A DNA stretch of 63,363 nt, taken from contig CALLJS010000020.1 in assembly GCA_938050045.1 (NCBI GenBank), positions 1 to 63,363 on the forward strand, written 5' to 3'. The position numbers were made by a program, and so were the translations under genes. Positions 2,179 through 63,363 of this stretch are shown piece after piece. How positions within the stretch are numbered: position 1 is the first letter of the stretch; the number at the start of each line of letters is the position of its first letter. The stretch is from an uncultured Sphingomonadaceae bacterium (GTDB taxonomy: Bacteria; Pseudomonadota; Alphaproteobacteria; Sphingomonadales; Sphingomonadaceae). The notes under the pieces were generated by a model that was not told the DNA's origin, did not search any database, and was given only the letters and a program-made list of their open reading frames with translations.

Positions 2179-2198
2179 AACCTGACGGCAGATTTCGG

Positions 2199-3664: not shown

Positions 3665-3677
3665 GTGCTTCTCTTGG

Positions 3678-3754
<77 letters not shown>

Positions 3755-3950: not shown

Positions 3951-5141
3951 TTATGGCTGTGGGCTTATGCGCAAAATACGGCTTTTGCTGCCTTCTTCGG
4001 TCAGCACATATAAGGCGCCATCGGGGCCGTTTCGAACATCGCGAAAGCGCACATTAAGTTCGCCAAATAATTCGCTTTGTTTGCCCAAGGTTCCATCGGC
4101 ATTCATATTAACATGGCGCACATGTTTTAGCACAAGCGCAGATAAAAATAGATCGCCTTGCCAATTTGGAAATAAATCACCCGTATATTGTGCAAAACCC
4201 GATGGTGCTATTGATGGGGTGAAATGCACTAACGATTGTTCGGTGCCATCCAATGCCTCAAATGGTGATACGCGGCCACCCGAATAATCAAGGGCATAGG
4301 TGACAATGGGCCAACCATAATTAGCACCTTTCTTAATCGCATTAATCTCATCGCCGCCCGCTGGGCCATGTTCATTTGCAAGCAAGCGTCCATCGCTTGT
4401 AACTATAATACCTTGAGGATTGCGGTGGCCATAAGACCATATTTCAGGAAATGCTCCTTCTTGATTGATAAATGGATTGTCGGAGGGGACTGAGCCATCT
4501 TCATTGATGCGGATAATTTTCCCAAAATGATTGTCCAATGTTTGGGCTTCTTCGCGGAAATGAAACGCATCACCAACGGGCATAACCAATGTTCCATCGG
4601 CTAAGAATGCAATGCGCGCGCCGTAATGATTTCCTTGGATACGCGCAGGAGAGGCGGTGAATATTTTTTGACCATTGCTAATGGATTTGCCATCTTCGCT
4701 TAGGTTAAATCGATAAAGAAGGAGCGTATTTTTATCATCGCCTTGTTCTGCGGCATAGCTGATAAAGACCATCCTGTGATTGGCAAAGTCAGGATGCAAT
4801 ATCACATCGAAAAGCCCCGCTTGTCGGCCTATGCCATGATGCACTTTTGGATAATCAGAACCTTCATTAAAATCATAGATGAGGCTGCTCTCGCCGGCTG
4901 CATTGATATGCAATAATTTTCCCGTACGCTGCGTTACCAATTTTCCGCCATTGGGCAAAAAAGCGAGCGACCATGGATGATCTAACCCTTGAGCAACGGT
5001 GTCTATTTTATAATCGATGGCTGCTGCTGGGGCGCGCTCTGCCAATTGACTGGTTTTCTCGCCAGAAGGTGAAGCACCTTGGTTTGAACATGCAGCCAAA
5101 ACGGCCGATAGTAGCAAAATGTTGAGCATTTTTAATTTCAT
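3951..5141 (-). CDS. PQQ-dependent sugar dehydrogenase, lipoprotein
   Basis: 396 residues from an ATG at 5141, chosen because GGGGAC sits 9 bases upstream and the first residues become a lipoprotein signal (LLLSAVLAAC). The mature part is a six-bladed propeller of the soluble aldose/glucose dehydrogenase (Asd/YliI) family. It carries LDHPWSLAFLP in blade one, GDAFHFREEAQ, SYGHRNPQGI, NEHGPAGGDEIN and ANYGWP, motifs that in this family bind PQQ and calcium. It should oxidise aldose sugars in the periplasm while anchored by lipid. Whether the organism makes PQQ cannot be judged here, as no pqq genes are present. It stands alone, divergent from the next gene. Confidence 0.85.
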   Translation of the reverse strand: MKLKMLNILLLSAVLAACSNQGASPSGEKTSQLAERAPAAAIDYKIDTVAQGLDHPWSLAFLPNGGKLVTQRTGKLLHINAAGESSLIYDFNEGSDYPKVHHGIGRQAGLFDVILHPDFANHRMVFISYAAEQGDDKNTLLLYRFNLSEDGKSISNGQKIFTASPARIQGNHYGARIAFLADGTLVMPVGDAFHFREEAQTLDNHFGKIIRINEDGSVPSDNPFINQEGAFPEIWSYGHRNPQGIIVTSDGRLLANEHGPAGGDEINAIKKGANYGWPIVTYALDYSGGRVSPFEALDGTEQSLVHFTPSIAPSGFAQYTGDLFPNWQGDLFLSALVLKHVRHVNMNADGTLGKQSELFGELNVRFRDVRNGPDGALYVLTEEGSKSRILRISPQP

Positions 5142-6890: not shown

Positions 6891-7445
6891 ATGGCACTTA
6901 TCTTATTTAATAAACCGCATGGGGTATTATCGCAATTTACCGATAAAGGCAGCCCGACAAAGCGGGCAACTTTATCTGATTATATCGGCGTACCAAATGT
7001 CTATCCCGCAGGCCGATTAGATCGCGATAGCGAAGGCCTATTATTGCTAACTGATGATGGAAGGCAGCAATCCCGAATTTCTGATCCGCGTTATAAAATG
7101 CCCAAAACCTACTATGCGCAAGTCGAAGGTATCGCCAATGAAGCCGCATTGCAAAAATTGCGCAAAGGGGTCGCGCTGAAAGATGGTATGACATGGCCCG
7201 CAGAAGCAGGATTGATGGATGCCCCCAATATCTGGCCGAGGAACCCGCCTATCCGGGTGCGCAAAAGCGTAGCAGATAGTTGGATTATCATTACCATTAC
7301 AGAAGGAAAAAATCGCCAAGTGCGGCGCATGTGCGCGGCTGTTGGATTTCCTGTGTTGCGGCTTATTCGCTGGCGTATCGGCGATTGGCGGCTGGATGGC
7401 ATAGACAGCGGGACGTGGATTAAGGAGCCGCTATATGGCCGATAA
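6891..7445 (+). CDS. rluE: 23S rRNA pseudouridine synthase, RluE-like
   Basis: 184 residues when started at the ATG at 6891; an earlier in-frame ATG at 6852 adds residues that do not match the family. It starts with the strand LILFNKPHGVLSQF and has the catalytic aspartate in GRLDRDSEGLLLLT. A GKNRQVRRMCAAVGFPV segment follows, all typical of the RsuA/RluB/E/F group. The short length without an N-terminal S4 domain fits RluE, which modifies U2457 of 23S rRNA. Its stop overlaps the start of the ABC1 kinase gene by 11 bases, indicating one transcript. Confidence 0.9.
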   Translation: MALILFNKPHGVLSQFTDKGSPTKRATLSDYIGVPNVYPAGRLDRDSEGLLLLTDDGRQQSRISDPRYKMPKTYYAQVEGIANEAALQKLRKGVALKDGMTWPAEAGLMDAPNIWPRNPPIRVRKSVADSWIIITITEGKNRQVRRMCAAVGFPVLRLIRWRIGDWRLDGIDSGTWIKEPLYGR

Positions 7446-8754
7446 AGAGAGCAAGGGCAGCAAAGTTCCTTTTGGGCGAATATCGCGCTTTGCCCGTTTT
7501 GGCGGTATGGCAACGCAAGTCGCGGGCAATATGGTGTTTGATGGAGCGCAGCAATTATTATCGGGTAAACGGCCATCGGTGAATGATTTACTATTGACGC
7601 CTGCTAATGCCTTAAAAGTAACCAATCAACTGGCAAATATGCGCGGTGCGGCGATGAAATTGGGCCAGATGATGTCTATGGATAGCGGCGATTTCTTGCC
7701 GCCCGAACTGGCCGAAATATTGGCGCAATTGCGCTCTGATGGTCAACATATGCCGCGCAAACAATTAGAAAAAATGCTTATATTTGGTTGGGGTGATGAT
7801 TGGGAAGATAGGTTTGAAAATTTCTCTCATGCCCCCATTGCAGCAGCATCCATTGGCCAAGTGCATAGGGCAAGAATAAAAGCCGATGGTGATGATCTGG
7901 CCATTAAAGTGCAATATCCTGGCGTTAAAAATAGCATCGACAGCGATATTGATAATGTATCTGCTTTGCTCCGATTGACGGGATTATTGCCCGATACTTT
8001 GGATATTAAGCCAGTGCTTGAAGAGGCGAAACGTCAATTACATGAAGAAGCCGATTATGAACGAGAAGCGCAATATTTAGTCAGATTTGGAGCGTTGCTA
8101 GGTGGTGATGATAATTTTATAGTTCCGAAATTCCACCCTAGATTATCCACCCTAAAAATATTGGCAATGACCTATGTAGAAGGCGTTGCAATAGAGACCA
8201 TGGCGCGCGCATCGCAAAATGATCGCAATCATATAGCGCATTTGCTCATTGATTTATTGCTGCGTGAATTGTTTGAATTTCGCTTGATGCAAACCGACCC
8301 CAATTTCGCTAATTATCGTTATAATGTTGACCAACAGAAATTGGTGCTGCTCGACTTTGGAGCAAGCCGAGAGATTAGCCAAAAAACCGCTAATATGTAT
8401 CATGCGATGATGCTGGCGGTGCTATCGGGCGATGGTGAAGAAAGTTTCAATGCGGCGAGCGCAATGGGTTTTATTTCAGAGGATATGCCAGAAAAATATC
8501 GCGACACAATATTGGAAATGCTCAATATGGCTATGGAACCCTTGCAATATGATGGGGAATTTGATTTTGGTAATAATGATATATCCGCCACTTTACGCGA
8601 TAAAGGTATGGAGATGGCAATGGATAAGCAGATGTGGTATTTGCCGCCCGTTGATACTATATTCATCCAACGCAAATTTAGCGGTATATTTATGCTAGCA
8701 AGCCGCTTAAAGGCAAAGGTCAATGTTCGCGCATTGATGCAAAAATATAGGTAA
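7435..8754 (+). CDS. ABC1/AarF (UbiB/COQ8 family) atypical kinase
   Basis: 439 residues. The family signature KxGQ appears as KLGQMMSMD near residue 75, followed by the Ala-rich loop AAASIGQVHRA and the VAIK-like lysine in LAIKVQYPGV. The catalytic-loop equivalent QTDPNFANY and the metal-binding LLDFGAS come later. This is the ADCK3/COQ8 lineage needed for ubiquinone biosynthesis, with weak ATPase rather than classical kinase activity. It overlaps rluE by 11 bases and is followed 7 bases later by the rhodanese gene, so the three form an operon. Confidence 0.9.
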   Translation: MADKESKGSKVPFGRISRFARFGGMATQVAGNMVFDGAQQLLSGKRPSVNDLLLTPANALKVTNQLANMRGAAMKLGQMMSMDSGDFLPPELAEILAQLRSDGQHMPRKQLEKMLIFGWGDDWEDRFENFSHAPIAAASIGQVHRARIKADGDDLAIKVQYPGVKNSIDSDIDNVSALLRLTGLLPDTLDIKPVLEEAKRQLHEEADYEREAQYLVRFGALLGGDDNFIVPKFHPRLSTLKILAMTYVEGVAIETMARASQNDRNHIAHLLIDLLLRELFEFRLMQTDPNFANYRYNVDQQKLVLLDFGASREISQKTANMYHAMMLAVLSGDGEESFNAASAMGFISEDMPEKYRDTILEMLNMAMEPLQYDGEFDFGNNDISATLRDKGMEMAMDKQMWYLPPVDTIFIQRKFSGIFMLASRLKAKVNVRALMQKYR

Positions 8755-8761
8755 GGATTGA

Positions 8762-9181
8762 ATGATGAAATATGGTTTAGTTTTGGTCGCATTATTATTG
8801 GCGGGCTGCAGCTCTGCATCAGAAGATATTATTGCTAGCGGAGAGGAACAATCAAACTTATTCTATCATAATATCGATGCTGTTGATGCCCAAGATTTTA
8901 TTATTGCGCATCCCGATGCCATTGTAATGGATGTGCGCACCGCCGATGAATTTAGCGCAGGCCATGTGGCTGGAGCGATTAATATTGACTATCATGGGGA
9001 TGGTTTTCGGGATACGCTGAAAAAGCTTGATAAAGATGCGCATTATATTTTGCACTGTAAGTCTGGGAATCGCAGCGGTAAATCTGTGGCTATAATGAAA
9101 GAATTGGACTTTAAGCACGTCACGCATATGGATGGCGGTTTTGATGCTTGGAAAGCCGCCGAATTACCCGTGATACAATGA
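8762..9181 (+). CDS. Rhodanese-domain lipoprotein
   Basis: 139 residues (138 if the second ATG at 8765 is used; AAGGA at 8753-8757 fits either). The N-terminus is a lipoprotein signal with lipobox LLAGC. The rest is one rhodanese domain with VMDVRTADEF and the active-site loop HCKSGNRSG, whose cysteine (about residue 99) should carry the persulfide. A periplasmic, membrane-anchored sulfurtransferase is expected. The acceptor is unknown. Last gene of the rluE-ABC1 kinase operon. Confidence 0.85.
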   Translation: MMKYGLVLVALLLAGCSSASEDIIASGEEQSNLFYHNIDAVDAQDFIIAHPDAIVMDVRTADEFSAGHVAGAINIDYHGDGFRDTLKKLDKDAHYILHCKSGNRSGKSVAIMKELDFKHVTHMDGGFDAWKAAELPVIQ

Positions 9182-9305
9182 TACCATTGTCCTATAAAAT
9201 ATCATCCATCCGCCATAGATTAATATAGATTGTCACCGCAGAATTGATAGCGAGCAGCATCTATGCGCCAGCAGAGGGAATGGGTTAATAGAATAACACC
9301 CTCTA

Positions 9306-9333
9306 TTGACGAAATAAGATCAATGGATATAAT
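9306..9333 (+). promoter_or_regulatory. Sigma-70-type promoter of the DUF2490 gene
   Basis: TTGACG at 9306-9311 and a perfect TATAAT at 9328-9333 with a 16-base spacer, 40 bases upstream of the next start codon. No other feature explains them. Confidence 0.65.
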
Positions 9334-9372
9334 CCGATTAATCTATTCCTATTATAAGATATAAGTTTTTCT

Positions 9373-10056
9373 ATGATAAAATTATTGTTAAAATATATAT
9401 TATTATTCGTATCTTTCACCATATTTTCTCATAGTGAAGCACGAGCGCAAGAGAATGATTTGAATGGCTGGGGCGTTATCACATCATCCATTGATACTGG
9501 CGAAAAGACATTCATATGGCTAGAGGCGCAGCCGCGTTTTACCAATGATATTTCGCGTCTTGGGCAATTATTATTGCGCACAGGGGTGGGGTATAAAATA
9601 GATAAAGAAACCAGCGTTGTGCTGGGCTATGCTTATATTTTTACCGATCCAGTTGGCCCCGCATCCAGCAATGAACATCGCATATGGCAACAATTATCAT
9701 TCAATGTTTTTGGCGACGGGAATGGCGTTACTTTGAAGGGCCGTTCGCGATTGGAGCAACGTATATTTGAGGGCAGCAGTGACGTGGGTGTGCGCATTCG
9801 TCAGCAATTAAATCTATCGGTGCCGCTGAGTGATACATTAAAAGCTGTATTTTACACCGAACCATTCATTGCATTGAACACAATCAATATAGGTCAAAGA
9901 GACGGGCTGAACGTATGGCGAAACTATGCGGGGCTATCATTCCCAATTAGCAAAAATATATCACTCTCGCCTGGTTATCTTAACCAATATGTCCCAAGAG
10001 TAGGGGAGGATAGAATTGACCATGTTGCTGTTATCGGGATTAGTAGTAAATTTTGA
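9373..10056 (+). CDS. DUF2490 outer-membrane beta-barrel protein
   Basis: 227 residues. An N-terminal Sec signal ends near residue 26 (SEARA). The mature part is made of alternating amphipathic strands, with WLEAQPRFT near the start, RSRLEQRIF in the middle, and a C-terminal strand ending in Phe (GISSKF), typical of outer-membrane barrels. The order and spacing match the DUF2490 family, of unknown function. A strong promoter lies just upstream and the gene converges with queA. Confidence 0.75.
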   Translation: MIKLLLKYILLFVSFTIFSHSEARAQENDLNGWGVITSSIDTGEKTFIWLEAQPRFTNDISRLGQLLLRTGVGYKIDKETSVVLGYAYIFTDPVGPASSNEHRIWQQLSFNVFGDGNGVTLKGRSRLEQRIFEGSSDVGVRIRQQLNLSVPLSDTLKAVFYTEPFIALNTINIGQRDGLNVWRNYAGLSFPISKNISLSPGYLNQYVPRVGEDRIDHVAVIGISSKF

Positions 10057-10137
10057 TAGATAAAAAGGGCGTATATTCTTACTATCAATATTATCATATT
10101 TAATAGTCTAATCTTTATCGTCATTCTCTATCATTGC

Positions 10138-11169
10138 TTATGGAATGAGTAAGCTGCTATCTCCATAAGAATAAAAACGGTAATTATGCGCAATGGCATG
10201 GCGATAAATAGATTGCATGCGATCAACCCCCATCAATGCACTGACCAGCATGAATAATGTACTTTTGGGCAGATGGAAATTGGTGATAAGCCCATCAATA
10301 CCGCGAAATTTATAACCAGGGGTAATGAATATATCGGTATCGCCTTTGAACGGCCCTATGATACCATCTTTGCCCGTGGCACTCTCTATCAGCCTGAGCG
10401 ATGTCGTGCCAACACAGATTATACGCCCACCATTTTTGCGTGTTTCATTCATCTGGTTCGCCGCGCTTTGCGTTATTTCACCCCATTCGCTGTGCATGAC
10501 ATGATTGTCTGTATCATCGACTTTGACGGGCAGAAATGTCCCCGCTCCAACATGCAAGGTCAGCGAAATATGATGGATATTGGCGGCGTCTAATTGGGCC
10601 ATAAGCTTTGGCGTGAAGTGCAAGGCTGCGGTTGGGGCAGCAACTGCCCCATCTTTTTGCGCAAACATAGTTTGATAATCTTCATAATCGCGTTCATCGG
10701 TGCGGCGTTTGCTCGCAATATAAGGCGGCAATGGCATAGTGCCTGCACGGTTCAATAATATTTCTATGGCTTCATTGCCCTCGAAATAAAGTGTGAAGCT
10801 ACCATCCTCATGCCGCTGTTCTGCCGTTGCAAAAACATCAGCCCCAAAATCAATCCGTTCATCAGGCTTTAACCTCTTGGCATTGCGGATAAAGGCCTGC
10901 CATCTGCGCAAATCTATCCGTTTATGCAATGTGGCCGCAAACATGGCTTCTCCGCCCACTTTTTTGCCCGATAATTGCGCTGGAATGACCCTAGTATCAT
11001 TAAAAATGAGCAAATCATTGGGCTGCAATAGATTTGGTAAATCCGATACATTATAGTCTCGCGTTTCACCGTTTTGCGCCGTCAATAGCTTTGCACTATG
11101 GCGCGGCGATACAGGCCGCAGAGCAATGCTCTTGGGCGGTAATTGAAAATCAAATATATCGGTTTGCAT
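10138..11169 (-). CDS. queA: S-adenosylmethionine:tRNA ribosyltransferase-isomerase
   Basis: 343 residues, full family length. It begins DIFDFQLPPKSIALRPV and contains NDTRVIPAQL, PPYIASKRRTDERDYEDYQT, TLHVGAGTFLPVK and LITNFHLPKSTLFMLVSA, all hallmarks of QueA. It transfers the ribosyl moiety of S-adenosylmethionine to preQ1 in tRNA, making epoxyqueuosine. The preceding step, tRNA-guanine transglycosylase, is encoded at 40432-41571 in this window rather than next door. The cyclophilin gene lies upstream on the same strand, a common alphaproteobacterial arrangement. Confidence 0.95.
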   Translation of the reverse strand: MQTDIFDFQLPPKSIALRPVSPRHSAKLLTAQNGETRDYNVSDLPNLLQPNDLLIFNDTRVIPAQLSGKKVGGEAMFAATLHKRIDLRRWQAFIRNAKRLKPDERIDFGADVFATAEQRHEDGSFTLYFEGNEAIEILLNRAGTMPLPPYIASKRRTDERDYEDYQTMFAQKDGAVAAPTAALHFTPKLMAQLDAANIHHISLTLHVGAGTFLPVKVDDTDNHVMHSEWGEITQSAANQMNETRKNGGRIICVGTTSLRLIESATGKDGIIGPFKGDTDIFITPGYKFRGIDGLITNFHLPKSTLFMLVSALMGVDRMQSIYRHAIAHNYRFYSYGDSSLLIP

Positions 11170-11228
11170 AGCAATGCATTAGTCTTATGCGCCTATCTGA
11201 GCAAGCGGGTAATAGGGATAATATCAGA

Positions 11229-11876
11229 CTAATCGATGATTGATAATTCGTCATCGCCTGGAAGCGATCTATCCACTATTTCAATAATAGGAGCCGGTTT
11301 ATTATCCGCACCAATAGAGGCTTGCACGATATGATCTGGTGATTTTGGCGGCTCTCCGCGCTGAATAGCATCTATATATTGCATGCCACTTTTGACACGT
11401 CCGAATAATGTATATTTATTATCGAGCGAGAAACGCGGTTGGAATACAATGAAAAACTGGCTGTTGGCGGAATTGGGTTCATTGGCACGCGCCATCGACA
11501 CCGTTCCGCGAACATGAACATTGCGCGTAAATTCGGCTTCTAAATCGGGTAATTGTGATCCGCCTTGACCGGTGCCTGTTGGATCGCCCGTTTGTGCCAT
11601 AAAGCCCTCTATCACGCGGTGAAAAATAATCCCATCATAAAAGCCCTGGCGCGTCAGCGTTTTGATACGCTTTACATGATTGGGCGCAATGTGCGGATAT
11701 AGCACGATAGTCACGCGGCCGCCCGTGGAGAGGTCAAGCAATAAATGATTTTCAGGATCAGTGGGATCAAATTGAAGAACAGGTTCTGTTGTTTCGTTTT
11801 CTTGCGCCATAACGGGTGATAAATTCATGGCGACTAAAAAAGCTAGAAATAGAGGAAAGATACTTTTCAAACGCAT
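11229..11876 (-). CDS. Periplasmic cyclophilin-type peptidyl-prolyl isomerase
   Basis: 215 residues from the ATG at 11876, which yields a good signal peptide (KSIFPLFLAFLVAMNLSPVMA). Upstream in-frame starts would place 20 polar residues before it. The catalytic core has HRVIEGFMAQTGDPTGTG and NSQFFIVF, the conserved elements around the active-site Arg and Phe. It assists proline isomerisation during folding of exported proteins. It precedes queA on the same strand with about 60 bases between, so co-transcription is likely. Confidence 0.9.
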   Translation of the reverse strand: MRLKSIFPLFLAFLVAMNLSPVMAQENETTEPVLQFDPTDPENHLLLDLSTGGRVTIVLYPHIAPNHVKRIKTLTRQGFYDGIIFHRVIEGFMAQTGDPTGTGQGGSQLPDLEAEFTRNVHVRGTVSMARANEPNSANSQFFIVFQPRFSLDNKYTLFGRVKSGMQYIDAIQRGEPPKSPDHIVQASIGADNKPAPIIEIVDRSLPGDDELSIID

Positions 11877-12048
11877 TTTTAATAGTCCTAATGTTAATAT
11901 ATTAATCTCCTTATCCATAATCCCTGTCGCTGTCATGAACGAAGTGGTTTAATATATAAATTAATTTTAATTGCACGGTTAAAAAACTTGACCAATTTAT
12001 CATTTTTCTGTCAATAGTATGCGCAAATAATAACCTCAGGAGCAATAT

Positions 12049-13203
12049 ATGTCTTTAGATACAATTCCGCGCAATGCTTATGATGAAGACCAAGAAGCCT
12101 TTCGTCAAACGGTGCGTCAATTCTTGCAAAAAGAAGTTGCTCCCAATGCAGAGCAATGGGACAAGGATAAAATTGTTCCCAAAGACATTTGGCCTAAAGC
12201 AGGCGAGCTTGGGATGCTATGTCCAACAGTTCCAGAAGAATATGGAGGCTTAGGGCTCGACTTTGGCTATAATGCCATCGTTGATGAAGAGGTTGCTTAT
12301 GGTGCTGGTGCGGTACTCGGTTTCTCGCTTCAGTCGGATATTGTTGTAAATTATATCATCTCTTATGGTAGCGAAGAGCAAAAGAAAAAATGGCTTCCTC
12401 GGCTAGTCTCGGGTGAGTCCATCACAGCCATCGCTATGACCGAGCCAGGCGTGGGCAGCGATTTGCAAGGCATTAAAACTTCTGCGAAAAAAGATGGCAA
12501 TCATTATGTCATTAATGGGTCAAAAACCTATATCACCAATGGTCAAAATGCCGACCTTATACTGGTTTGTGCGAAAACTGACCCTGATGCGGATCCAGCG
12601 TGGAAAGGCGTTTCGATCATCTTAGTAGAAGCCGATACCGAAGGTTTTGAGCGCGGCCGTAATCTGGATAAAATCGGTATGGATAGTGCTGATACGTCTG
12701 AATTATTTTTCAATGATGTGCGCGTTCCTATGACTAATTGTTTGGGAGAAGAAGGCAAGGGCTTTATCTATTTGATGAGCGAATTACCCCAAGAACGCTT
12801 GTCTATCGCGGTAAGCGCGCAAGCATCTGCTCAAAAAGCATTTGATGATACGGTCGAATTTGTCCGCGATCGTAAAGCATTTGGTAAGCCCGTCATAGAT
12901 TTCCAAAACACCCGCTTTGTATTGGCTGATTTGAAATCCAAATTGCAAGTCGGCTGGGCGCATCTTGATTGGGCGTTGGTGCGTCATAATAAAAAAGAAC
13001 TCACCGCCGAAGAAGGGGCGGCGGCTAAATTATGGCATACTGATTTACAGTGGGAAGTGATGGACAAATGTCTGCAATTACATGGCGGAGCGGGCTATAT
13101 GAACGAATATAGCATTGCTAAACAATGGCGCGGTGCGCGCGTTACCCGCATATTTGGCGGCACAAATGAGATTATGAAAGAATTGATTGGGCGCACGCTC
13201 TAA
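12049..13203 (+). CDS. Acyl-CoA dehydrogenase, long-chain (LCAD/ACADL) type
   Basis: 384 residues with AMTEPGVGSDLQGIKT for FAD/substrate contacts, YITNGQNADL, and DRKAFGKPV near residue 275. The position that holds the catalytic Glu in medium-chain enzymes is Gly here (IFGGTNEI). A Glu is present instead in LPQERLS (E249), the site used by mammalian LCAD and isovaleryl-CoA dehydrogenase. It therefore probably oxidises long or branched acyl-CoA. AGGAGC at 12037-12042 serves as the ribosome binding site, and a terminator follows at 13228. Confidence 0.9.
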   Translation: MSLDTIPRNAYDEDQEAFRQTVRQFLQKEVAPNAEQWDKDKIVPKDIWPKAGELGMLCPTVPEEYGGLGLDFGYNAIVDEEVAYGAGAVLGFSLQSDIVVNYIISYGSEEQKKKWLPRLVSGESITAIAMTEPGVGSDLQGIKTSAKKDGNHYVINGSKTYITNGQNADLILVCAKTDPDADPAWKGVSIILVEADTEGFERGRNLDKIGMDSADTSELFFNDVRVPMTNCLGEEGKGFIYLMSELPQERLSIAVSAQASAQKAFDDTVEFVRDRKAFGKPVIDFQNTRFVLADLKSKLQVGWAHLDWALVRHNKKELTAEEGAAAKLWHTDLQWEVMDKCLQLHGGAGYMNEYSIAKQWRGARVTRIFGGTNEIMKELIGRTL

Positions 13204-13227
13204 ATAGCACATCATATCGCGATAGAG

Positions 13228-13259
13228 AACCATCTTGATATAAATCGGGATGGTTTTTT
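13228..13259 (+). terminator. Rho-independent terminator after the acyl-CoA dehydrogenase gene
   Basis: A 12-bp stem (13228-13239 with 13244-13255, two G-U pairs), ATAA loop, then a T run. It lies 25 bases after the stop codon. Confidence 0.75.
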
Positions 13260-13294
13260 ATATCCCTCTTTTCCTCCATAAAGGAGACTTTACC

Positions 13295-13795
13295 GTGAAA
13301 AAATATATGATTGGTTTATCGCTGAGCTGCGCTATGATTGCGGCGCCTGCTCATGCCCAAGATGGAACGCAAGCGAAGCCCCAAGACGCCGCTACATTAG
13401 GCGTCAACCATGTTGGGTTTGCGGTGAGCAAATTAGATGCCACCACCGATTTTTTTGTCGAGACACTCGGCTGGTCTCTAGCGGGCGGGCGGCCTGATTA
13501 TCCAGCGAAATTTGTTACCAATGGAAGCATTTTTATCACCTTATGGCAGGTCAATGATCCTGCTAATGCAGTCGCATTTGATCGTAAAAATAATGTTGGT
13601 TTGCACCATATGGCGATTACGGTTCGTGATTTGGATGCGCTCAATGCGCTGCATGAAAAATTCAAAGCGCATGATGATGTAATTGTTGAATTTGCCCCTG
13701 AATTTTTGGGCAGTGGCCCGACTACGCATATGATTATCAGAGAGCCAAGCGGTTTGCGGCTTGAATTTATCGTGCCTGCGAACCGCATCAAATGA
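13295..13795 (+). CDS. Exported glyoxalase-fold (VOC) protein
   Basis: 166 residues from a GTG at 13295, preceded by AAGGAG at 13281-13286. Residues 1-22 form a signal peptide ending AHA. The rest is a single vicinal-oxygen-chelate unit pair: LGVNHVGFAVSKLDATTDFF at the start, HHMAITVRDLDALNAL in the middle and LRLEFIVP at the end. Such proteins include glyoxalase I and dioxygenases, but a periplasmic member is unusual and the substrate is unknown. The thioesterase gene follows 16 bases later. Confidence 0.75.
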   Translation: MKKYMIGLSLSCAMIAAPAHAQDGTQAKPQDAATLGVNHVGFAVSKLDATTDFFVETLGWSLAGGRPDYPAKFVTNGSIFITLWQVNDPANAVAFDRKNNVGLHHMAITVRDLDALNALHEKFKAHDDVIVEFAPEFLGSGPTTHMIIREPSGLRLEFIVPANRIK

Positions 13796-13811
13796 GAGAG
13801 AAAGCGACAAT

Positions 13812-14246
13812 ATGAAGCGTCCCGAAGCTTGGCAAAAAAGCATTGAAAATTACCCCTTCAGCCACCGTACCGAAACACGTTTTGCGGATTTGGATATATT
13901 GGGACATATCAATAATGTGTCGATGGCGGGCCTGTTTGAGCATGGGCGCGGTATGTTTAACCATAGCATCGAAGTTACGCGTCGCACCGAAGGACAGCGT
14001 TGGCTTATCGCGCGTGTCGAGCTTAATTATATTGCCGAGGCGCATTTTCCCGAACATATTTTTATAGCTAGCGGTATATCGCGCATCGGCAGCAGTAGCT
14101 GGGATATTGCATCGGCTGCGTTTCAAAATGATGAATGCAAAGCTGTGTGCATGACGACGATAGTGCTGACCGATAAAAATGGCGCGACGCCCATTAGCGA
14201 TGAATTACGCCAAGAATTTGAACGCTTAATGGTGGTGAAGGTGTAG
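13812..14246 (+). CDS. Hot-dog fold acyl-CoA thioesterase (4HBT type)
   Basis: 144 residues from the ATG at 13812, with a purine-rich GAGAGAGAAA upstream. ETRFADLDILGHINNVSMA has the arrangement RxxDxDxxGHxNN of the YbgC/4-hydroxybenzoyl-CoA thioesterase group, where the Asp is catalytic. It should hydrolyse an acyl-CoA or acyl-ACP in the cytosol. It is probably co-transcribed with the glyoxalase-fold gene and converges with the enoyl-CoA hydratase gene six bases away. Confidence 0.8.
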   Translation: MKRPEAWQKSIENYPFSHRTETRFADLDILGHINNVSMAGLFEHGRGMFNHSIEVTRRTEGQRWLIARVELNYIAEAHFPEHIFIASGISRIGSSSWDIASAAFQNDECKAVCMTTIVLTDKNGATPISDELRQEFERLMVVKV

Positions 14247-14251
14247 CCCGC

Positions 14252-15049
14252 TCAATCGACGAAATTAGCAGCGCGTTTTTGCATTTGTGCCATAACGGCT
14301 TCTATCTGGTTGGGCTGACGCATAACGCGGTTTTGCTCTACGCTCTCAGCGATTAAAATAGCATCTTCGTCCATGTCGGGCAGTTCATTGATGAGCGATT
14401 TGGCGCGCTGCATAGCATCGGGGTTGCGATTGACGATTTCAGTCGCAATGGCCATCGCACGGGCAATGGGGTCTGCATCGACATAAGTCACAAAGCCTAA
14501 ATTTTGGCCTTCTTCGCCAGAAAATTCGCGGTTAGTATAGGTCAGCTCGCGCAATATATCATCGCGCACATTGCCGCGCCAAACGGTAAATCCGCCCATA
14601 TCAGGAATTAAACCCCATTTCATCTCCATGATCGACATACGCGCATCGGGCGTTGCAATGCGAATATCAGCACCGCTAGCAATTTGCAGCCCGCCGCCAA
14701 AACATACGCCGTGTACGGCTGCGATAACGGGTATCGGCATCTCGCGCCAAAGCGTGCAGACATATTGGAAATCATTGGCATTACCATAAGTACGCTCGGT
14801 GAGCGATTTAGCATTCCCGCCACTTACATTCCCGCCATTGGCCATGCTGGCCATATCTAATCCTGCACAAAAACTGCGGCCTTCGCCTGATAAGACGACC
14901 GCTCTGACCGCAGGCGTTTCCATCAATTCTTTGCCAGCTTCGATAATAGCTTGGAACATATCTGGGTCGAGCGCGTTCATTTTCTCTGGTCGGTTTAATC
15001 GGACATGCGCGATATGGTTTTCAATCATAATGGTAACGCGGTCGGTCAT
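14252..15049 (-). CDS. Enoyl-CoA hydratase/isomerase family (crotonase)
   Basis: 265 residues. RLNRPEKMNALDPDMF, SGEGRSFCAGLDMASM and AAVHGVCFGGGLQIASGADIRIA supply the CoA-binding and oxyanion-hole elements of the crotonase fold. MSIMEMKWGLIPDMGG has Glu at one of the usual catalytic positions and Asp in the second region. The exact reaction (hydratase, isomerase or thiol esterase) cannot be told from motifs alone. It fits with the neighbouring acyl-CoA dehydrogenase and thioesterase in fatty acid degradation. Confidence 0.85.
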   Translation of the reverse strand: MTDRVTIMIENHIAHVRLNRPEKMNALDPDMFQAIIEAGKELMETPAVRAVVLSGEGRSFCAGLDMASMANGGNVSGGNAKSLTERTYGNANDFQYVCTLWREMPIPVIAAVHGVCFGGGLQIASGADIRIATPDARMSIMEMKWGLIPDMGGFTVWRGNVRDDILRELTYTNREFSGEEGQNLGFVTYVDADPIARAMAIATEIVNRNPDAMQRAKSLINELPDMDEDAILIAESVEQNRVMRQPNQIEAVMAQMQKRAANFVD

Positions 15050-15225
15050 AAGGTGTCCCTTTGCTGGGTTTATTCATCTAGCATTATTGCGATTCTAATA
15101 TTTAGCAGTAATCGCACGATTAACCAGCGGCAACTGATGATTTCTAAAATATATCTTTACCGATAAAAATAGATGCTGCGCCAAAGCTGCTGGGTTCGAT
15201 CAGCTCTTGGGTATTGCTGCGTAAT

Positions 15226-15909
15226 TTATTGAAGAGGTTTTTGCCCATTGCCGCTAACGGCAATGACATAACCTTTATTTTTAATCGTTTGAATCTGTGG
15301 GGCATTGGGTGCATATTCTATCATTTTTTGGCGCAACCTCCATATATGAACCTCAACACTATTTGTACCAGGATCATGCCTGCAATTCCAAAGATGATGC
15401 AATATATGGGTGCGCGAAACGGGCTTTGGAGAATTTTTAATTAAATATTCTAATAATAGATATTCACGCGGTTTTAGCGGAATGCTAATCTTTTTATGGG
15501 AAATATTTCTATCTAAATAATCAATATAGAAATCGCCGATTTTTTTGATATATTGCCCTTGATCGTAGCGCCTATGCAATCCATTTATACGAGCATATAA
15601 TTCTATCGGATCAATAGCAGGAGATACCACATCATCCATGCCTTTTATAAGAAGGCTGCCGCGAATAGAGCTGGTACAATGGCATATAATAATCGCAGGG
15701 ATGTGAGGCATAGTTCGGCGCATATCTATGGCGACCTCTAGCATTTTACCACAGAAAATTACTCCGCTATTTATCAATAGCAAAGATATTTTTGCACATG
15801 CTGTTTCAAATAAACAATTAATTTCAATGCCAAATTGAGATAGATTTTCAATGACAGATACGTTGCTATCATCGGAAAAAGACATCCAACTAATGTACAA
15901 TCTTTCCAT
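15226..15909 (-). CDS. Atypical OmpR-family response regulator (degenerate receiver)
   Basis: 227 residues from the ATG at 15909, with GGAG/AGGA just upstream. Residues 1-120 have receiver-like strand order but lack the key residues. The phosphoacceptor position reads Asn in SLLLINSGVIFCG where family members have LxxLDxxMP, the conserved switch Lys is missing (VVSPAIDP), and no acidic pair follows strand one. Residues about 130-222 are an intact OmpR winged helix (PLKPREYLLLEYLI, TNSVEVHIWRLRQKM, TIKNKGYVI). It probably binds DNA without classical phosphorylation. No histidine kinase is adjacent. Confidence 0.8.
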   Translation of the reverse strand: MERLYISWMSFSDDSNVSVIENLSQFGIEINCLFETACAKISLLLINSGVIFCGKMLEVAIDMRRTMPHIPAIIICHCTSSIRGSLLIKGMDDVVSPAIDPIELYARINGLHRRYDQGQYIKKIGDFYIDYLDRNISHKKISIPLKPREYLLLEYLIKNSPKPVSRTHILHHLWNCRHDPGTNSVEVHIWRLRQKMIEYAPNAPQIQTIKNKGYVIAVSGNGQKPLQ

Positions 15910-16003
15910 TCCTAGCTCCAATAAGCTGGAGATGTAAGCGATTGTAAGGATGATTAAACGAGACTTGCATCCACTTTGGATGATTAGCTTTTTTGAGGGG
16001 TGT

Positions 16004-17191
16004 TTACCCTTGGTTCAAAAACTTTTTAATATTACGGGCGGCCTGACGAAGACGCTGTTCATTCTCGACTAAGGCAAGGCGGACATAACCCTCGCCTTCA
16101 TCGCCAAAGCCTACGCCTGGCGCAACGGCAACGCCCGCTTCTGCTATCAAGCGTTTGGAAAATTCCATGGCGCCGATTTCTCTATACTGTTCTGGAATAG
16201 GGGCCCATGCAAACATGCTAGCCTCTGGAGAGGGTATATCCCATCCTGCACGGCCAAAGCTATCGACCATGACATCGCGGCGTGCTTTATAAAGTGTCCG
16301 ATTTTCATCGATAATATTTTGTGGCCCATTTAATGCAGCCGTTGCCGCGACTTGGATGGGGGTAAAGGCGCCATAATCCAGATATGATTTCACCCGCGTA
16401 AGCGCACTAATGAGCGTCTGATTGCCCGTTGCAAACCCCATGCGCCATCCGGGCATGCTATATGTTTTGGACATAGAGGTAAATTCTATGGCAACGTCTT
16501 TTGCACCTTTGATTTGTAATATAGAGGGCGTTGGTTTGTCGCCAAAATATATTTCGGCATAGGCCAAGTCGCTTATCACCCATAAATCATGCGCGCGCGC
16601 AAAATCAACAACCTTTTGATAAAAGTCAAGATCAGCGACGTAAGCCGTAGGATTGGATGGATACCCCATTACCAAAACCGATGGCTTTGGTACAGAATAG
16701 GACATGGCATATTCAAGTCGCGTAAAAAAATTGGGTCCTGGCGCGGCCGGAATAGAGCGGATAGAGGCCCCTGCTATGATAAACCCAAATGTATGGATTG
16801 GATAACTAGGGTTGGGAGCCAAAACCACATCGCCAGGCGCTGTGATAGCTTGCGCGAGATTAGCCAGCCCTTCTTTGGAACCAAGGGTAACGATGACCTC
16901 GCTATCTGGATCTAAATCGACATCAAAACGGCGTTTATAATAGGCGGCTTGGGCATTGCGCAGACCCTTAATTCCTTTTGATGCACTATAGCGATGGGCG
17001 TTTGGGTTGTTGGCGGTTTCGGATAATTTATCGATAACATGCTGCGCTGGTGCGCCATCAGGATTGCCCATGCCCAAATCAATAATATCTTCTCCGCGCG
17101 CGCGCGCCTCTGCTTTCATCGCATTCACTTCTGCAAATACATAAGGGGGTAAGCGACGGATTCGATAAAAATCTTGGGATGATTTAGCCAT
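16004..17191 (-). CDS. Class I aminotransferase, AlaC-like
   Basis: 395 residues. The fold-type I pattern is complete: IDLGMGNPDGAPAQHVIDKL at the start, NPSYPIHTFGF, GYPSNPTAYVA (Asn binding the PLP ring), DLAYAEIYFG, and SMSKTYSMPGWRMGF containing the PLP lysine. RLALVENEQRLRQA closes the C-terminus. It most resembles glutamate-pyruvate aminotransferase AlaC or related enzymes making alanine or methionine-type amino acids. Substrate assignment is tentative. A 314-base spacer separates it from the divergent phaC. Confidence 0.85.
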   Translation of the reverse strand: MAKSSQDFYRIRRLPPYVFAEVNAMKAEARARGEDIIDLGMGNPDGAPAQHVIDKLSETANNPNAHRYSASKGIKGLRNAQAAYYKRRFDVDLDPDSEVIVTLGSKEGLANLAQAITAPGDVVLAPNPSYPIHTFGFIIAGASIRSIPAAPGPNFFTRLEYAMSYSVPKPSVLVMGYPSNPTAYVADLDFYQKVVDFARAHDLWVISDLAYAEIYFGDKPTPSILQIKGAKDVAIEFTSMSKTYSMPGWRMGFATGNQTLISALTRVKSYLDYGAFTPIQVAATAALNGPQNIIDENRTLYKARRDVMVDSFGRAGWDIPSPEASMFAWAPIPEQYREIGAMEFSKRLIAEAGVAVAPGVGFGDEGEGYVRLALVENEQRLRQAARNIKKFLNQG

Positions 17192-17505
17192 GAGAAACGT
17201 AATGAGCTTTCTTAAATTTGTGGCAACTTATTATGATGCGGTTGTTTTAATTAAACTGATGGTTGGATGATTAGCGCATAGTTCACAATAATGATATAAA
17301 TTTAACAATGATATTGATATATTAATATAATGAGCGGCACTACCAAGCTGTGCGATTGCCGATAATGGCTATGCGCATTAATATAGCATTTATTTTATTG
17401 CTAGGATGCGAGATATTATTTTGATGCACCCCCAAATTTATAGCGCATTATATTATTATTCTATACCGTGGGTTTCGCATTGCCAAGCGAGTCGAGGATT
17501 ATAAG
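17192..17505. other. Divergent intergenic region between aminotransferase and phaC
   Basis: 314 AT-rich bases without an open frame of interest. It must hold promoters for both divergent genes, but I see no convincing -35/-10 pair, no copy of the phasin TTGCACTGCAA palindrome, and no stable hairpin. Confidence 0.5.
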
Positions 17506-19353
17506 ATGATAACAGACAAAAGTAGCGATGGAGATGAGAATGATGGGGATGACGCGATAGGCAATGCCGATGCAGGCGATAGTAATGCTAGTGGTTGCTC
17601 GAAGAATAATAAGGATGCTAGCGCAGACTATATTGAGAATTTTGCAAAAATGCAGGCAAATTTTTTTAAAAATATGACCCCCATAATGGAGCAATTTTCA
17701 TCTAATTCCATGCAAAAATCTATGCTGAATATGGTCGAGCATAGTAAGCGCATGGAATGGCAAGCTTGGCCTGTACCAATGACCAATGCCATGATGGACA
17801 ATGGAACTGAGAATATTGCCAAATTATGCGAGGGTTGGGCTAAAATTATGGCTGATGGTTTTGGTCAGTCCAGTCCAAAAAATAAGGATAAAAGATTTGT
17901 GCATGCCGCTTGGGAAGGGAATCCTCTCTATGCCTATTTGCAGCAACAATATCTATTTTTGTGCACGCAAGCGGATGCTTGGTTGGAGAGCCAAGATAAT
18001 ATTTCTGAGCCTGAAAAAGAACAATTAAAGTTTCAATTTGCGCAATTTTTTGATGCCGCATCGCCGAGTAATTTTATTTTCTCCAACCCTGAAATCATAG
18101 AGAAAGCCATAGAGACCAACGGGAAATCGCTGCAGAAAGGACTGCAAAATGCGATTAATGATATGAGCAAAGGGCAATTAACGCATACCGACCCAAATGC
18201 CTTTGAGCTTGGTGTTAATATAGCCATGACTCCTGGCAAAATAGTCCATGAAACGCCTTTATATCAACTCATCCAATATGATCCGATGACAAAAGATCAA
18301 CTAGCCACCCCATTGGTCATATTCCCACCATGGATTAATCGCTATTATATTTTGGACCTTAATCCGCAAAAAAGCTTTGTAAAATGGGCTTTAGAGCAAG
18401 GCATTACAGTGTTTATGGTTTCTTGGAAGTCAGCCGATAGCAGCATGGCCACTATAATGTGGGATGATTATGTGAAGGCTGAAATTGAGGCCATTGATAC
18501 GATCCGAGACGGACTAGATGTCGATTCGGTGCATGCCATAGGCTATTGCGTGGCGGGGACGACTTTGAACGCTGCATTAGCAATTTTGCACACTCGCGGT
18601 GACCAAGATAAAGTGAAAAGCGCAACATTTTTCACGACTCAAGTTGATTTTGAAGATAGCGGTGATTTGAGAATCTTTACCACCGATGCGCATGTAAAAT
18701 TATTGGATGCAGCATCGTCGCAAGGCTATTTGGATGGCCGGGTAATGGCCGCAACATTCAACATGCTGCGCAGCAAAGACTTAATTTGGAATTATGTCGT
18801 TAATAATTATCTGCTTGGTAATGATTACCCAGCCTTTGATTTGCTGCATTGGAATGGAGATACGACAAATTTACCTGCGGCATGGCATAAAAGCTATATT
18901 AATGATCTGTATCGTCATAATTTATTGGTGATTCCCAACCGTTTGTCGGTGGATGGCACGCCAATTGATTTGCGGCGTATAAAAACCCCTGCTTATATCC
19001 AAGCGGGGATCGAAGATCATATCGCCCCCGCAAAAAGCGTATGGAAATTGCGCAATCATCTGAGCGGCCCAGTGCGTTTTACCTTGGCTGGTTCAGGGCA
19101 TATCGCGGGTGTGGTCAATCACCCCGATGCACAAAAATATCAATATTGGCGCAATGATTCCGATGATCTCGCCTCATTGGATGAATTTATCGCTGGCGCA
19201 CGAGAGACTAAGGGCAGTTGGTGGCCAGATTGGCTTGATTGGCTTAGAGAGCAAGATAATCGCACGGTGCCAGCGAAGGGCGCGCGCATTGCTGGAGAAG
19301 GTGTTTTGCCTGCGCTTGAGGATGCTCCGGGGCGTTATGTGCGGATGCGGTAA
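17506..19353 (+). CDS. phaC: Class I poly(3-hydroxyalkanoate) synthase
   Basis: 615 residues. The lipase-like box GYCVAGT gives nucleophile C348, with the Asp in GIEDHIAP and the His in GSGHIAGVVNHP completing the triad. VIFPPWINRYYILDLNPQKSFVKWA is a strongly conserved PhaC segment. The N-terminal 60 residues are acidic and low-complexity. The enzyme polymerises (R)-3-hydroxyacyl-CoA on granule surfaces. Phasin follows at 19507 and the reductase PhaB is at 22424, while phaA and phaR are not seen in this window. Start chosen at the first ATG; a shorter form cannot be excluded. Confidence 0.95.
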   Translation: MITDKSSDGDENDGDDAIGNADAGDSNASGCSKNNKDASADYIENFAKMQANFFKNMTPIMEQFSSNSMQKSMLNMVEHSKRMEWQAWPVPMTNAMMDNGTENIAKLCEGWAKIMADGFGQSSPKNKDKRFVHAAWEGNPLYAYLQQQYLFLCTQADAWLESQDNISEPEKEQLKFQFAQFFDAASPSNFIFSNPEIIEKAIETNGKSLQKGLQNAINDMSKGQLTHTDPNAFELGVNIAMTPGKIVHETPLYQLIQYDPMTKDQLATPLVIFPPWINRYYILDLNPQKSFVKWALEQGITVFMVSWKSADSSMATIMWDDYVKAEIEAIDTIRDGLDVDSVHAIGYCVAGTTLNAALAILHTRGDQDKVKSATFFTTQVDFEDSGDLRIFTTDAHVKLLDAASSQGYLDGRVMAATFNMLRSKDLIWNYVVNNYLLGNDYPAFDLLHWNGDTTNLPAAWHKSYINDLYRHNLLVIPNRLSVDGTPIDLRRIKTPAYIQAGIEDHIAPAKSVWKLRNHLSGPVRFTLAGSGHIAGVVNHPDAQKYQYWRNDSDDLASLDEFIAGARETKGSWWPDWLDWLREQDNRTVPAKGARIAGEGVLPALEDAPGRYVRMR

Positions 19354-19447
19354 GGCAATTTTTTCATCTGACTTACACAAATTATCTATTATTATATCAT
19401 AAAAAACAGTATTTTACTATTTTTATGCTGCGCTGCACAAATTTCTA

Positions 19448-19476
19448 TTGACTTTTTTGACAGCCCTATTTATATT
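19448..19476 (+). promoter_or_regulatory. Promoter of the phasin gene
   Basis: TTGACT at 19448-19453 and TATATT at 19471-19476 with a 17-base spacer, 30 bases before the start codon. The -10 overlaps a perfect palindrome. Confidence 0.7.
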
Positions 19477-19485
19477 GCACTGCAA
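19475..19485. promoter_or_regulatory. Candidate PhaR-type operator at the phasin promoter
   Basis: TTGCACTGCAA is a perfect inverted repeat (5-bp arms, 1-base centre) covering the end of the -10 element. In other alphaproteobacteria PhaR represses phasin genes through TGC/GCA-rich palindromes, so this site is a good candidate. The regulator itself is not in the window. Confidence 0.55.
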
Positions 19486-19506
19486 CATAAAAATGGAGTT
19501 TCTAAG

Positions 19507-19968
19507 ATGACGAAAGCAACCGAGAAAAACGCTGAAAAAGCAAAAGCAGAAACTGTAGAAGCAGCAACAAGTTTTTTTAGCGATGTGCGGGAACGCGCAA
19601 CGATAGCAGCCGAAAAAAGTCGCGCGCTTTTGAACGAAGCAAGCATAGCGACGCGCGCTAATTTAGACGCCGTGACCGAGAGCGGTAAAATTGCTGCTAA
19701 AGGCACGCAAGAATTAGCAAAAGAAAATCTAAAATATGCTAAATCAAACCTTAGCGAAGCACAAAATGCTGCCAAAACATTGGCCGCTGTCAAAAGCCCA
19801 ACCGAATTTGTGACAGTGCAAAGCGACATTGCGCGTAAAGGTTTTGACACAATGGTTGCGCAAGGGTCTAAAAATACTGAAACGGTGATTAAATTGGCGA
19901 GCGATATTTTCCAACCATTATCAAACCGTTTAGCACTAGCTTCTGATTTCTTCAAAAAAGCTGCATAA
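19507..19968 (+). CDS. phaP: Phasin family protein
   Basis: 153 residues, Ala/Lys/Glu-rich and almost entirely helical, with AKSNLSEAQNAAKTLAAVKSPTEF followed by VTVQSDIARKGFDTMVAQGSKN, the core pattern of alphaproteobacterial phasins. GGAG at 19495-19498 precedes the ATG. It coats PHA granules and controls their size and number. It has its own promoter and operator-like palindrome and is followed by a strong terminator, so it is monocistronic. About 150 bases separate it from phaC. Confidence 0.9.
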   Translation: MTKATEKNAEKAKAETVEAATSFFSDVRERATIAAEKSRALLNEASIATRANLDAVTESGKIAAKGTQELAKENLKYAKSNLSEAQNAAKTLAAVKSPTEFVTVQSDIARKGFDTMVAQGSKNTETVIKLASDIFQPLSNRLALASDFFKKAA

Positions 19969-20048
19969 ATATAAGTGCTGATTTTCGGTCGAAGCCCTCT
20001 CTCTCCTCTCCCTTTTGAGGCTTTGATAGAAATTCTGGTGATAAATGG

Positions 20049-61163: not shown

Positions 61164-62312
61164 ATGAGCGATTTTGAATATGATTATCTAAGCTCTATGG
61201 CGAAGAGAAATGCGGTTTTACTATGTAAATCCCCATCTCGGCGCGACTATCTGCGTCTGCTTGCCAAAACATATCACGTCATAATCATATCGGAAACGAT
61301 CGATAATGAACGGGAAAATAATGACCATGACAGCGCAAAATCAGATCGCATTGACGATGCTATACATCAACCAAAAACGCCTGTTGATCTGCTTTTGGTC
61401 GATTTTACCTCCAATACGGAGATTAATCAGCAAGAATTATCGCGCATTTCTAGTTACTTGTTAGACCATCAAATCGAAGCGGTCGTTTGGGCCAGTATGG
61501 ATGATCTTGATGAGGTGTTTGCTCATTTGCCAGCATCGCAATGTCATTTTCTAATCGACTCAAACCCGTTAGAGGCCATGCCCGCGTTGACGGGCCTAAC
61601 GGGGCGGGAAGTTATGAGCCATTTAAGCGACATAAGCCAAGATGAGAGCAATGAAAAAGAATATGCTGCTCTGCACCGTATTAGCGGAGAATTAGCTTCG
61701 CTCGCTAAAACTTTGGCAGAGATTGCCGTTATAGATGATATGAATATAGTAGAAATAGACAAACCCGCTCAGCATATTGCCCCAGCATCCAAAACGGCTG
61801 GTGCATATAAATCAGATAATGCTCTGGATAGTGATGCAGATGATTATATGAATCATAGCGTCTTTAAGGATAAGCCTGTGTCCTTTAATCCGTTTCCGAG
61901 CAAAGCATCATCCGCACCTTCGCCATTCATCGATAATGGTGGAAAATATCCCGAGCAAGGCAGCCCGATTAGCGCCGATATGGTACGCAGCATTATAAAA
62001 CAGCGCCGAATGCGCGATAATTATTTTGAGAGTGCTTTATTCGCCGATCCTGCATGGGATATTTTGTTGGATTTAATGGCGGCGCGCTTATCAGGACAAA
62101 CCGTATCGGTGTCCAGCCTTTGCATTGCGGCGGCGGTACCCGCGACAACGGGGTTACGTTGGATTACCTCTATGACCAAAAATGGCATGTTGGAACGTAA
62201 ATCAGACCCGATGGATGCGCGGCGCGTATTTATCGATTTATCCGATGAAACCTATGCAAAATTAGCAGCCTATTTGACCAAAGCTATGGGCAATGGCGGG
62301 GCAATTATCTGA
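61164..62312 (+). CDS. Winged-helix regulator with N-terminal receiver-like domain
   Basis: 382 residues. The N-terminal 130 residues have alternating strands and helices (NAVLLCKSPSRRDYLRLLAK, VDLLLVDFTSNTE) like a receiver or flavodoxin-type fold, but no clear phosphorylation site. A variable acidic linker follows. The C-terminal 110 residues resemble a MarR-type winged helix (VSVSSLCIAAAVPATTGLRWI, ERKSDPMDARRVFIDLSDE). This two-part design occurs in sphingomonad genomes, but I know no function. ATG has only a weak Shine-Dalgarno. Confidence 0.65.
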   Translation: MSDFEYDYLSSMAKRNAVLLCKSPSRRDYLRLLAKTYHVIIISETIDNERENNDHDSAKSDRIDDAIHQPKTPVDLLLVDFTSNTEINQQELSRISSYLLDHQIEAVVWASMDDLDEVFAHLPASQCHFLIDSNPLEAMPALTGLTGREVMSHLSDISQDESNEKEYAALHRISGELASLAKTLAEIAVIDDMNIVEIDKPAQHIAPASKTAGAYKSDNALDSDADDYMNHSVFKDKPVSFNPFPSKASSAPSPFIDNGGKYPEQGSPISADMVRSIIKQRRMRDNYFESALFADPAWDILLDLMAARLSGQTVSVSSLCIAAAVPATTGLRWITSMTKNGMLERKSDPMDARRVFIDLSDETYAKLAAYLTKAMGNGGAII

Positions 62313-62464
62313 ATAATCAGGGCATATTTACCCAATCGTAATAGCTTTAATTTATTTAAAATATCGAAAATGACAAAAAGGCCTTAAAAAGACTTGCCAA
62401 AGCGCGACGCATTTGGCATTGGCCAGCTTCTTGATTGCTCATACGCATAGTATGAACCTCTCAA

Positions 62465-62540
62465 GGGCGCTTAGCTCAGTTGGTAGAGCATCTCGTTTAC
62501 ACCGAGGCGGTCGGGGGTTCAAGTCCCTCTTCCTGCACCA
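62465..62540 (+). tRNA. tRNA-Val (TAC) with a mispaired acceptor stem
   Basis: 76 bases with encoded CCA. The D arm, anticodon arm (CTCGT-TTACACC-GAG with TAC) and T arm (GGGGG-TTCAAGT-CCCTC) form normally. The acceptor stem does not: GGGCGCT faces TTCCTGC, giving two Watson-Crick pairs, one G-U and four mismatches. The 5' arm would expect AGCGCCC and the 3' arm would expect GCAGGAA. The T stem also has one G-U pair. This looks like a join of two tRNA genes rather than a functional gene (see findings). Confidence 0.6.
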
Positions 62541-62735
62541 TTTTATAACTGCATTTTTGTTGCAGTTTCAGTTGCCTTTAGCGCGAGACTCGACCTGTCC
62601 ACCGCAATTCATAAAGTGTATAAGGCAATAATCATCTTGCGGTCATTGATTACACTTTGTTAGTATGTTTTTAGTTTTATCTGCTGTGTTCGGCCTATGA
62701 TAAAAACTAAACACCACTTCTCCACCTGATTTGTC
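62541..62735. other. Spacer after the tRNA, sequence of changed composition
   Basis: 195 bases with no gene. It contains AAAGTGTA at 62613-62620 and TACACTTT at 62651-62658, an 8-bp inverted repeat spaced by about 30 bases. From here the sequence no longer looks sphingomonad-like. Confidence 0.45.
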
Positions 62736-63065
62736 ATGAATCCATTTCCCTCCTCGATACCCTATTTCATCCTAGCCATATTATTTTTACTCCCAGCATG
62801 TGAGGATAGGGCCTTACTCAAAAAGGATGAAGAATTGAACCAGTATATCAAAGAGCTCAAAAAGGAGATAGAATTCTTGCAGGCTGATGCCGGTGAAAAT
62901 CCGGGAGATCAATCTCAAATGATCGCAAGCTTTAGCAAGATCCTCGATAAAGCAAAGACTGAGAAGAAAAACCTAGAAAATCAAAAAGATATCTTGGAGC
63001 GCGACCACGCAAAAATTGAGAGCCAATATTCCGACTACAAAAAAAGCTATCCGATTAAAAAATGA
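62736..63065 (+). CDS. Small coiled-coil lipoprotein
   Basis: 109 residues. A lipoprotein signal with lipobox LLPAC (C22) is followed by a highly charged heptad-like region (LKKDEELNQYIKELKKEIEF, KAKTEKKNLENQKDILERD). The sequence type resembles small lipoproteins in Verrucomicrobiota (Opitutae), but this is an impression from style only. It precedes another exported protein gene. Function unknown. Confidence 0.6.
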   Translation: MNPFPSSIPYFILAILFLLPACEDRALLKKDEELNQYIKELKKEIEFLQADAGENPGDQSQMIASFSKILDKAKTEKKNLENQKDILERDHAKIESQYSDYKKSYPIKK

Positions 63066-63110
63066 GGCGGTGTCTTTACGTTGAATTAAACACCAAAATA
63101 TATTCTCAAT

Positions 63111-63363
63111 ATGCCGAAAAGCACGTCAACAAAACAGCTTCCGCTGAAGATTACTGAAATTACATTCTCCGTTCTATTGCTGCTGTGGTTTTGCAATTTA
63201 ACCCATGCGGCCGATAATAACTCGTATTCTGCTGACTTAGGTCAACGAATTAAGGAGAAAGAAACTGAGGTGCAACTCCTAATCAATGAAAAAATCGAGT
63301 GGCAAGGGAATATCAATCTGTTCCAAGAAAATCGTATTAGAAAAATTGACCTGACATCAAAAA
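63111..63363 (+). CDS. Exported protein, truncated by the window end
   Basis: 84 complete codons from the ATG at 63111 to the window end. A Sec signal (ITFSVLLLLWFCNLTHA) is followed by a charged, probably coiled-coil region (LGQRIKEKETEVQLLINEKIEWQG). It follows the lipoprotein by 45 bases on the same strand, so co-expression is plausible. The C-terminus is unseen and no function can be named. Confidence 0.55.
   Translation, partial: MPKSTSTKQLPLKITEITFSVLLLLWFCNLTHAADNNSYSADLGQRIKEKETEVQLLINEKIEWQGNINLFQENRIRKIDLTSK

Follow-up and report, generated by a model that had tools for sequence, protein, structure and literature searches.

A tRNA-Val gene at a contig end of a draft genome that very probably joins sequences of two organisms through misassembly

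The window, that is, the whole stretch of DNA analyzed, is an entire contig of 63,363 bp (C20) and belongs to a draft genome of 28 contigs and 2.42 Mb, with scores of 99.28 for completeness and 1.37 for contamination. A tRNA-Val(TAC) gene lies close to its right end; the features on both sides of it and within it are shown in Table 1.

Table 1. Features at and around the tRNA-Val gene near the right end of the window
Feature	Position	Strand	Remarks
Last native gene left of the putative join (382 aa)	61164..62312	+	C-terminal winged helix, Pfam HTH_27
tRNA-Val, 5' acceptor strand	62465..62471	+	Native parent only; differs from Akkermansiaceae
tRNA-Val, 35-nt block identical in both parents	62472..62506	+	Join placed somewhere inside
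tRNA-Val, variable loop, T arm, 3' acceptor strand, and CCA	62507..62540	+	Assigned to the Akkermansiaceae parent
Akkermansiaceae-type flank	62541..63363	+	Extends to the contig end
Small coiled-coil-like protein (109 aa)	62736..63065	+	Start resembles that of a lipoprotein (visual judgment)
Start of a second protein	63111..63363	+	Cut by the contig end; gene order as in UBA985

ARAGORN called a tRNA-Val (tac) at 62464–62536, with displaced ends because of a poor fit at the ends of the gene. The Rfam tRNA model matched it with 44.7 bits over model positions 8–63 of 71 only, so the acceptor stem was not covered by the match. The inner arms agree with the model, as the sequence-only reading had said of the D, anticodon, and T arms. 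That reading had also counted four mismatches in the seven-base acceptor stem, and this was confirmed: in a 76-nt frame (62465–62540) three of the seven positions pair when G-U is accepted, two of them as Watson-Crick pairs, and four do not. We compared this stem with those of the 38 distinct tRNA genes of the draft, for which ARAGORN was run at 39 places found by Infernal (four rows repeated through neighboring loci were dropped; C16:27748, the one place that gave no ARAGORN call, is outside the 38). Counting G-U, 32 genes had all seven pairs and four had one mismatch; a tRNA-Cys on contig C1 had two, and the tRNA-Val of the window was the worst of all. Its mismatch exceeds chance.

The search for the parents of this gene revealed two. 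Letters 1–42 are identical to the tRNA-Val of G035, a genome of the same genus, and letters 8–76 are identical to the tRNA-Val of an Akkermansiaceae genome (UBA985), which belongs to a different phylum. Both parental genes are tRNA-Val(TAC), one kind of tRNA, and they share the exact 35-nt block listed in Table 1, which is their longest stretch of agreement. At 62507–62540 all 34 letters agree with the Akkermansiaceae gene, and 13 of them differ from G035. The native-type gene (GGGCGCT...AGCGCCC) is present in three same-genus genomes, G035, G022, and G011, with the same left neighbor in each. When a 25-nt piece from the 3' part of the window tRNA was searched against genome_contigs, all eight exact matches were titled Akkermansiaceae or Verrucomicrobiales, and each of the eight matched stretches contained a whole tRNA-Val(TAC) of the form GCAGGAA...TTCCTGC. 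Since the parents agree over 62472–62506 and the sequence is of Akkermansiaceae type from 62507 onward, the switch point lies within the stretch from the D arm to the anticodon stem and not in the T arm. The sequence-only reading had proposed that tRNA genes of two organisms were merged at the conserved T arm. The merging stands, with both parents identified to group and the native 3' half placed on another contig (below); the position does not, as the T arm is already that of Akkermansiaceae.

The DNA to the left of the gene is collinear up to the tRNA with the three same-genus genomes, at 86% identity to G035 (61164–62544), 78% to G022, and 73–74% to G011 (in two pieces). To the right, the foreign piece comprises the last 857 bases of the contig, counted from 62507. 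Its comparison with eight Akkermansiaceae-type genomes gave a match to the tRNA part in all eight, and 62615–63363 was 80% identical to UBA985 (G063; contig DBBL01000019.1), on the same strand, downstream of its tRNA-Val and on one contig with it. Beyond the tRNA-Val, homology sets in again at a distance of 2.36 kb in UBA985 versus 74 bp in the window, and 62545–62614 had no match in the UBA985 contig; the actual donor would therefore be a species other than UBA985. The donor species itself was not found among the Akkermansiaceae-type genomes searched, which yielded only UBA985 as an 80% relative.

The 109-aa protein encoded in this flank was 75% identical to its counterpart in UBA985. At E ≤ 0.001 it was found in 43 of 195 genomes of an Akkermansiaceae-family sample, mostly as weak matches (22%–35% identity), and in the window's own order it occurred in one of 296 genomes, the draft itself, and was absent from the other 295. 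Pfam gave no family above the curated cut-off for the right-flank proteins. A phage source was also considered and rejected, as the flank matched none of 50,697 phage records; for a viral origin of the two proteins, scans of viral contigs (16 and 23 pattern stretches) confirmed no relative. None of the matches listed for 60 relatives (four candidates scored per genome; E to about 6e-6) extended past about 62562. The earlier remark that the right-hand genes differ from the rest is in line with this result, and another genome with the same arrangement, which, together with uniform long reads, it had named as the case that would speak for a real locus, was absent from those listed matches.

The 3' ends of tRNA genes are common integration sites, and Akkermansiaceae DNA could have entered a real chromosome at this tRNA-Val, by tyrosine-recombinase integration or by homologous exchange, with damage to the tRNA. 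The absence of the flank from the matches listed for the 60 relatives would fit such an island. Against it, the 823 bases of right flank, which end at the contig end, contain no integrase and resemble an ordinary Akkermansiaceae flank. An att site would have restored the 3' end of the tRNA, but four of the seven acceptor positions are unpaired, so that integration would have cost the gene those pairs. The sequence-only reading had taken the broken acceptor stem as an argument against a genuine island, and the argument holds: the 3' end is not restored, and nothing in the 823 bases points to an island. We consider real integration or recombination very improbable, and two further observations given below, on contigs C4 and C1/C26, also count against it.

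A second tRNA-Val(TAC) is encoded in the draft at C4:4649–4724, with six of seven acceptor pairs. Rightward from 4856–4895, C4 is collinear and in the same direction with the DNA that follows tRNA-Val in G035 (85% identity), G022 (76%–80%), and G011 (70%–71%). The spacing from the tRNA to this continuation is 0.13–0.17 kb in C4 versus 0.9 kb in G035, 1.3 kb in G022, and 2.2 kb in G011. Judging from this collinearity, the right part of C4 is the native continuation of the left part of C20. When letters 1–42 from C20 are combined with letters 43–76 from C4, the G035 tRNA is obtained exactly, with seven of seven positions paired. The C4 gene differs from that of G035 in letter 6 only, and is itself probably a hybrid.

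The presence of this second copy, with its nearly complete acceptor stem, could be read in favor of a real pseudogene, or a second and diverged tRNA-Val of the species, in the window. This reading is the least probable of those we weighed, and we give it practically no credence: letters 43–76 are exactly the tRNA of another phylum (34/34) and do not carry scattered changes, and the C20 gene and the probably hybrid C4 gene each supply the part that the other needs for one intact gene.

The left end of C4 (1–4641, 4.6 kb) looks foreign and as if derived from a third organism. Its GC content is 0.556 versus 0.488 inside the contig, and it encodes clpX and lon, as assigned by Pfam, and clpP, as judged by eye. 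Another lon of the draft lies on C10; among 41 same-genus genomes including the draft, 39 had one lon, one had none, and only the draft had two. The best listed DNA matches to this end in 296 genomes of the order were 69%–77% identical per gene, so only distant relatives were found. C4 1–4724 has a foreign-looking block that meets native sequence at tRNA-Val, and is the reciprocal partner of the right end of the window. For the island, this means that the native continuation is on another contig, behind an apparent third organism's clpX-lon block and not behind an island end.

The tRNA-Cys genes on C26 and C1 present, on comparison with relatives, a second reciprocal swap like that at tRNA-Val, which again argues against an island. 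The inner side of C26 is collinear with the DNA preceding tRNA-Cys in G035 and G011, and the inner side of C1 with the DNA after it, at a distance of 13.5 kb in G035 and of 3.0 kb in G011. The 5' acceptor strand of the C1 gene is non-native, and the C26 gene diverges from that of G035 and G011 from the anticodon stem onward. The outer 5.9 kb of C1 has a GC content of 0.58 versus 0.435 and encodes TolC-like and Pcm-like proteins (Pfam), and presumably also valS- and PopZ-like genes; three of these four have diverged native copies on C26 (29%–36% identity). The contig parts concerned are C1 1–5960 and C26 1–1393.

Four further tRNA genes were graded as probable or possible switches because one side or GC content alone was compared. 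A one-sided switch is probable at tRNA-Trp on C5 (region 7425–19970; one acceptor mismatch in the tRNA), where collinearity with G035 extends to the end of the tRNA and is followed by 12.5 kb with a GC content of 0.568 versus 0.465. A 147-bp piece beyond the tRNA that is 71% identical to G035, 6 kb after its tRNA-Trp, speaks against a wholly foreign origin of this end.

The left end of the window (1–3754) is probably a second chimeric end, with a one-sided switch at tRNA-fMet (3678–3754). Positions 1–3677 have a GC content of 0.526 versus 0.435 and encode a YceI-cytochrome c protein (1219–2178) and a hydrolase. Similarity to same-genus genomes starts with the tRNA and resumes at 3838; in 40 relatives (G035 left out; seven candidates scored per genome), none of the matches that reached E 1e-20 started left of 3672. 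In 385 genomes of the class, with few candidates scored per genome, two matched 1–3677 at E 1e-40, namely the draft itself and one over 1–139 only. Where G022 and G011 match (from 3838 and from 3960, respectively), neither has a tRNA-fMet, and G011 has a tRNA-Ser; the switch at fMet is therefore less certain than those at Val or Cys. Rfam gave no match in 1–400 at E 0.01. The best identity of the YceI-cytochrome c protein among plasmid records was 54%, to a Ruegeria plasmid protein, and a "Rhodobacterales-like" source of this end is a lead only. Switches are possible at tRNA-Arg(cct) on C3 and tRNA-Asp on C13. Short end pieces lie beyond both: C3 1–1804, with one acceptor mismatch in the tRNA and a GC content of 0.51 versus 0.431 in the inner part, and C13 8794–9820, with 0.581 versus 0.451.

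These comparisons make it very likely that the tRNA-Val at 62465–62540 and its right flank are an assembly artefact, a chimera of two organisms formed in silico, and this tRNA is almost certainly not a real biological feature. The contig passes from the main genome of the draft to Akkermansiaceae-type sequence inside a tRNA-Val(TAC), within 35 shared bases. Each side is collinear with a different organism (on the right with a spacing difference of 2.3 kb from UBA985), an exact shared block lies at the switch, the native continuation is found elsewhere in the assembly on C4, and the arrangement is absent among the matches listed for 60 genomes. The main genome would be that of an alphaproteobacterium, and the sample would have been a metagenome in which a short-k-mer graph collapsed the common tRNA block into one node, and the edges entering and leaving that node would then have been wrongly paired. 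The real gene would consist of the left part of C20 and the right part of C4, and the cell would have no functional hybrid tRNA. Points on the other side are the failure to find the donor, of which UBA985 is only an 80% relative, and the unequal spacings next to the tRNA, in the right flank relative to UBA985 and in C4 relative to the three same-genus genomes.

Swaps among several organisms at conserved tRNA cores, together with foreign-looking contig ends, are most simply explained by wrong pairing of edges in such a graph, although the final k of many assemblers is above 35 nt, which counts against a graph error at so short a block. Template switching can also create joins at short identical stretches, and a chimera made in the laboratory, during library preparation or amplification, would then explain the join at the tRNA. 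We hold this for even less probable than an island: a graph error accounts better than single chimeric molecules do for flanks exchanged reciprocally at two tRNA loci, with foreign-looking parts (0.8–5.9 kb) that reach a contig end.

We lean toward the view that the tRNA genes of this draft are systematically sites of wrong junctions, reciprocal at Val and Cys, probably one-sided at Trp and fMet, and perhaps also at Arg and Asp. If this is true, acceptor-stem mismatches together with duplicated single-copy tRNAs could mark, in general, chimeric contig ends that are missed by completeness and contamination scores such as those of this draft. Taken at face value, the contig would indicate that genes were transferred between phyla at a tRNA and that an essential tRNA is damaged; on the evidence, neither is real. 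We suggest that the acceptor pairing of every tRNA be checked in draft genomes and that, where a normally single tRNA has two copies, each lacking its partner stem, the reciprocal contig be sought. Other analyses of this window should exclude 62507–63363 and treat 1–3677 as suspect.

The window resembles genomic islands integrated at tRNAs in that the novelty begins at a tRNA. It differs from them in the lack of an integrase in 823 bases, in the unrestored 3' end, and in that the novelty looks like an ordinary flank from a genome of another phylum. A closer likeness is to the contigs of mixed species that arise in k-mer (de Bruijn graph) assembly of metagenomes, where a short identical stretch bridges organisms and the foreign part lies at a contig end. 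PMC8172020 describes paths through k-mer graphs to which no real genomic sequence corresponds, and mock-community chimeras that were always at contig ends. In the example given there the parents, Salmonella enterica and E. coli, are very similar to each other, whereas those of the window belong to different phyla and have a 35-nt tRNA core in common.
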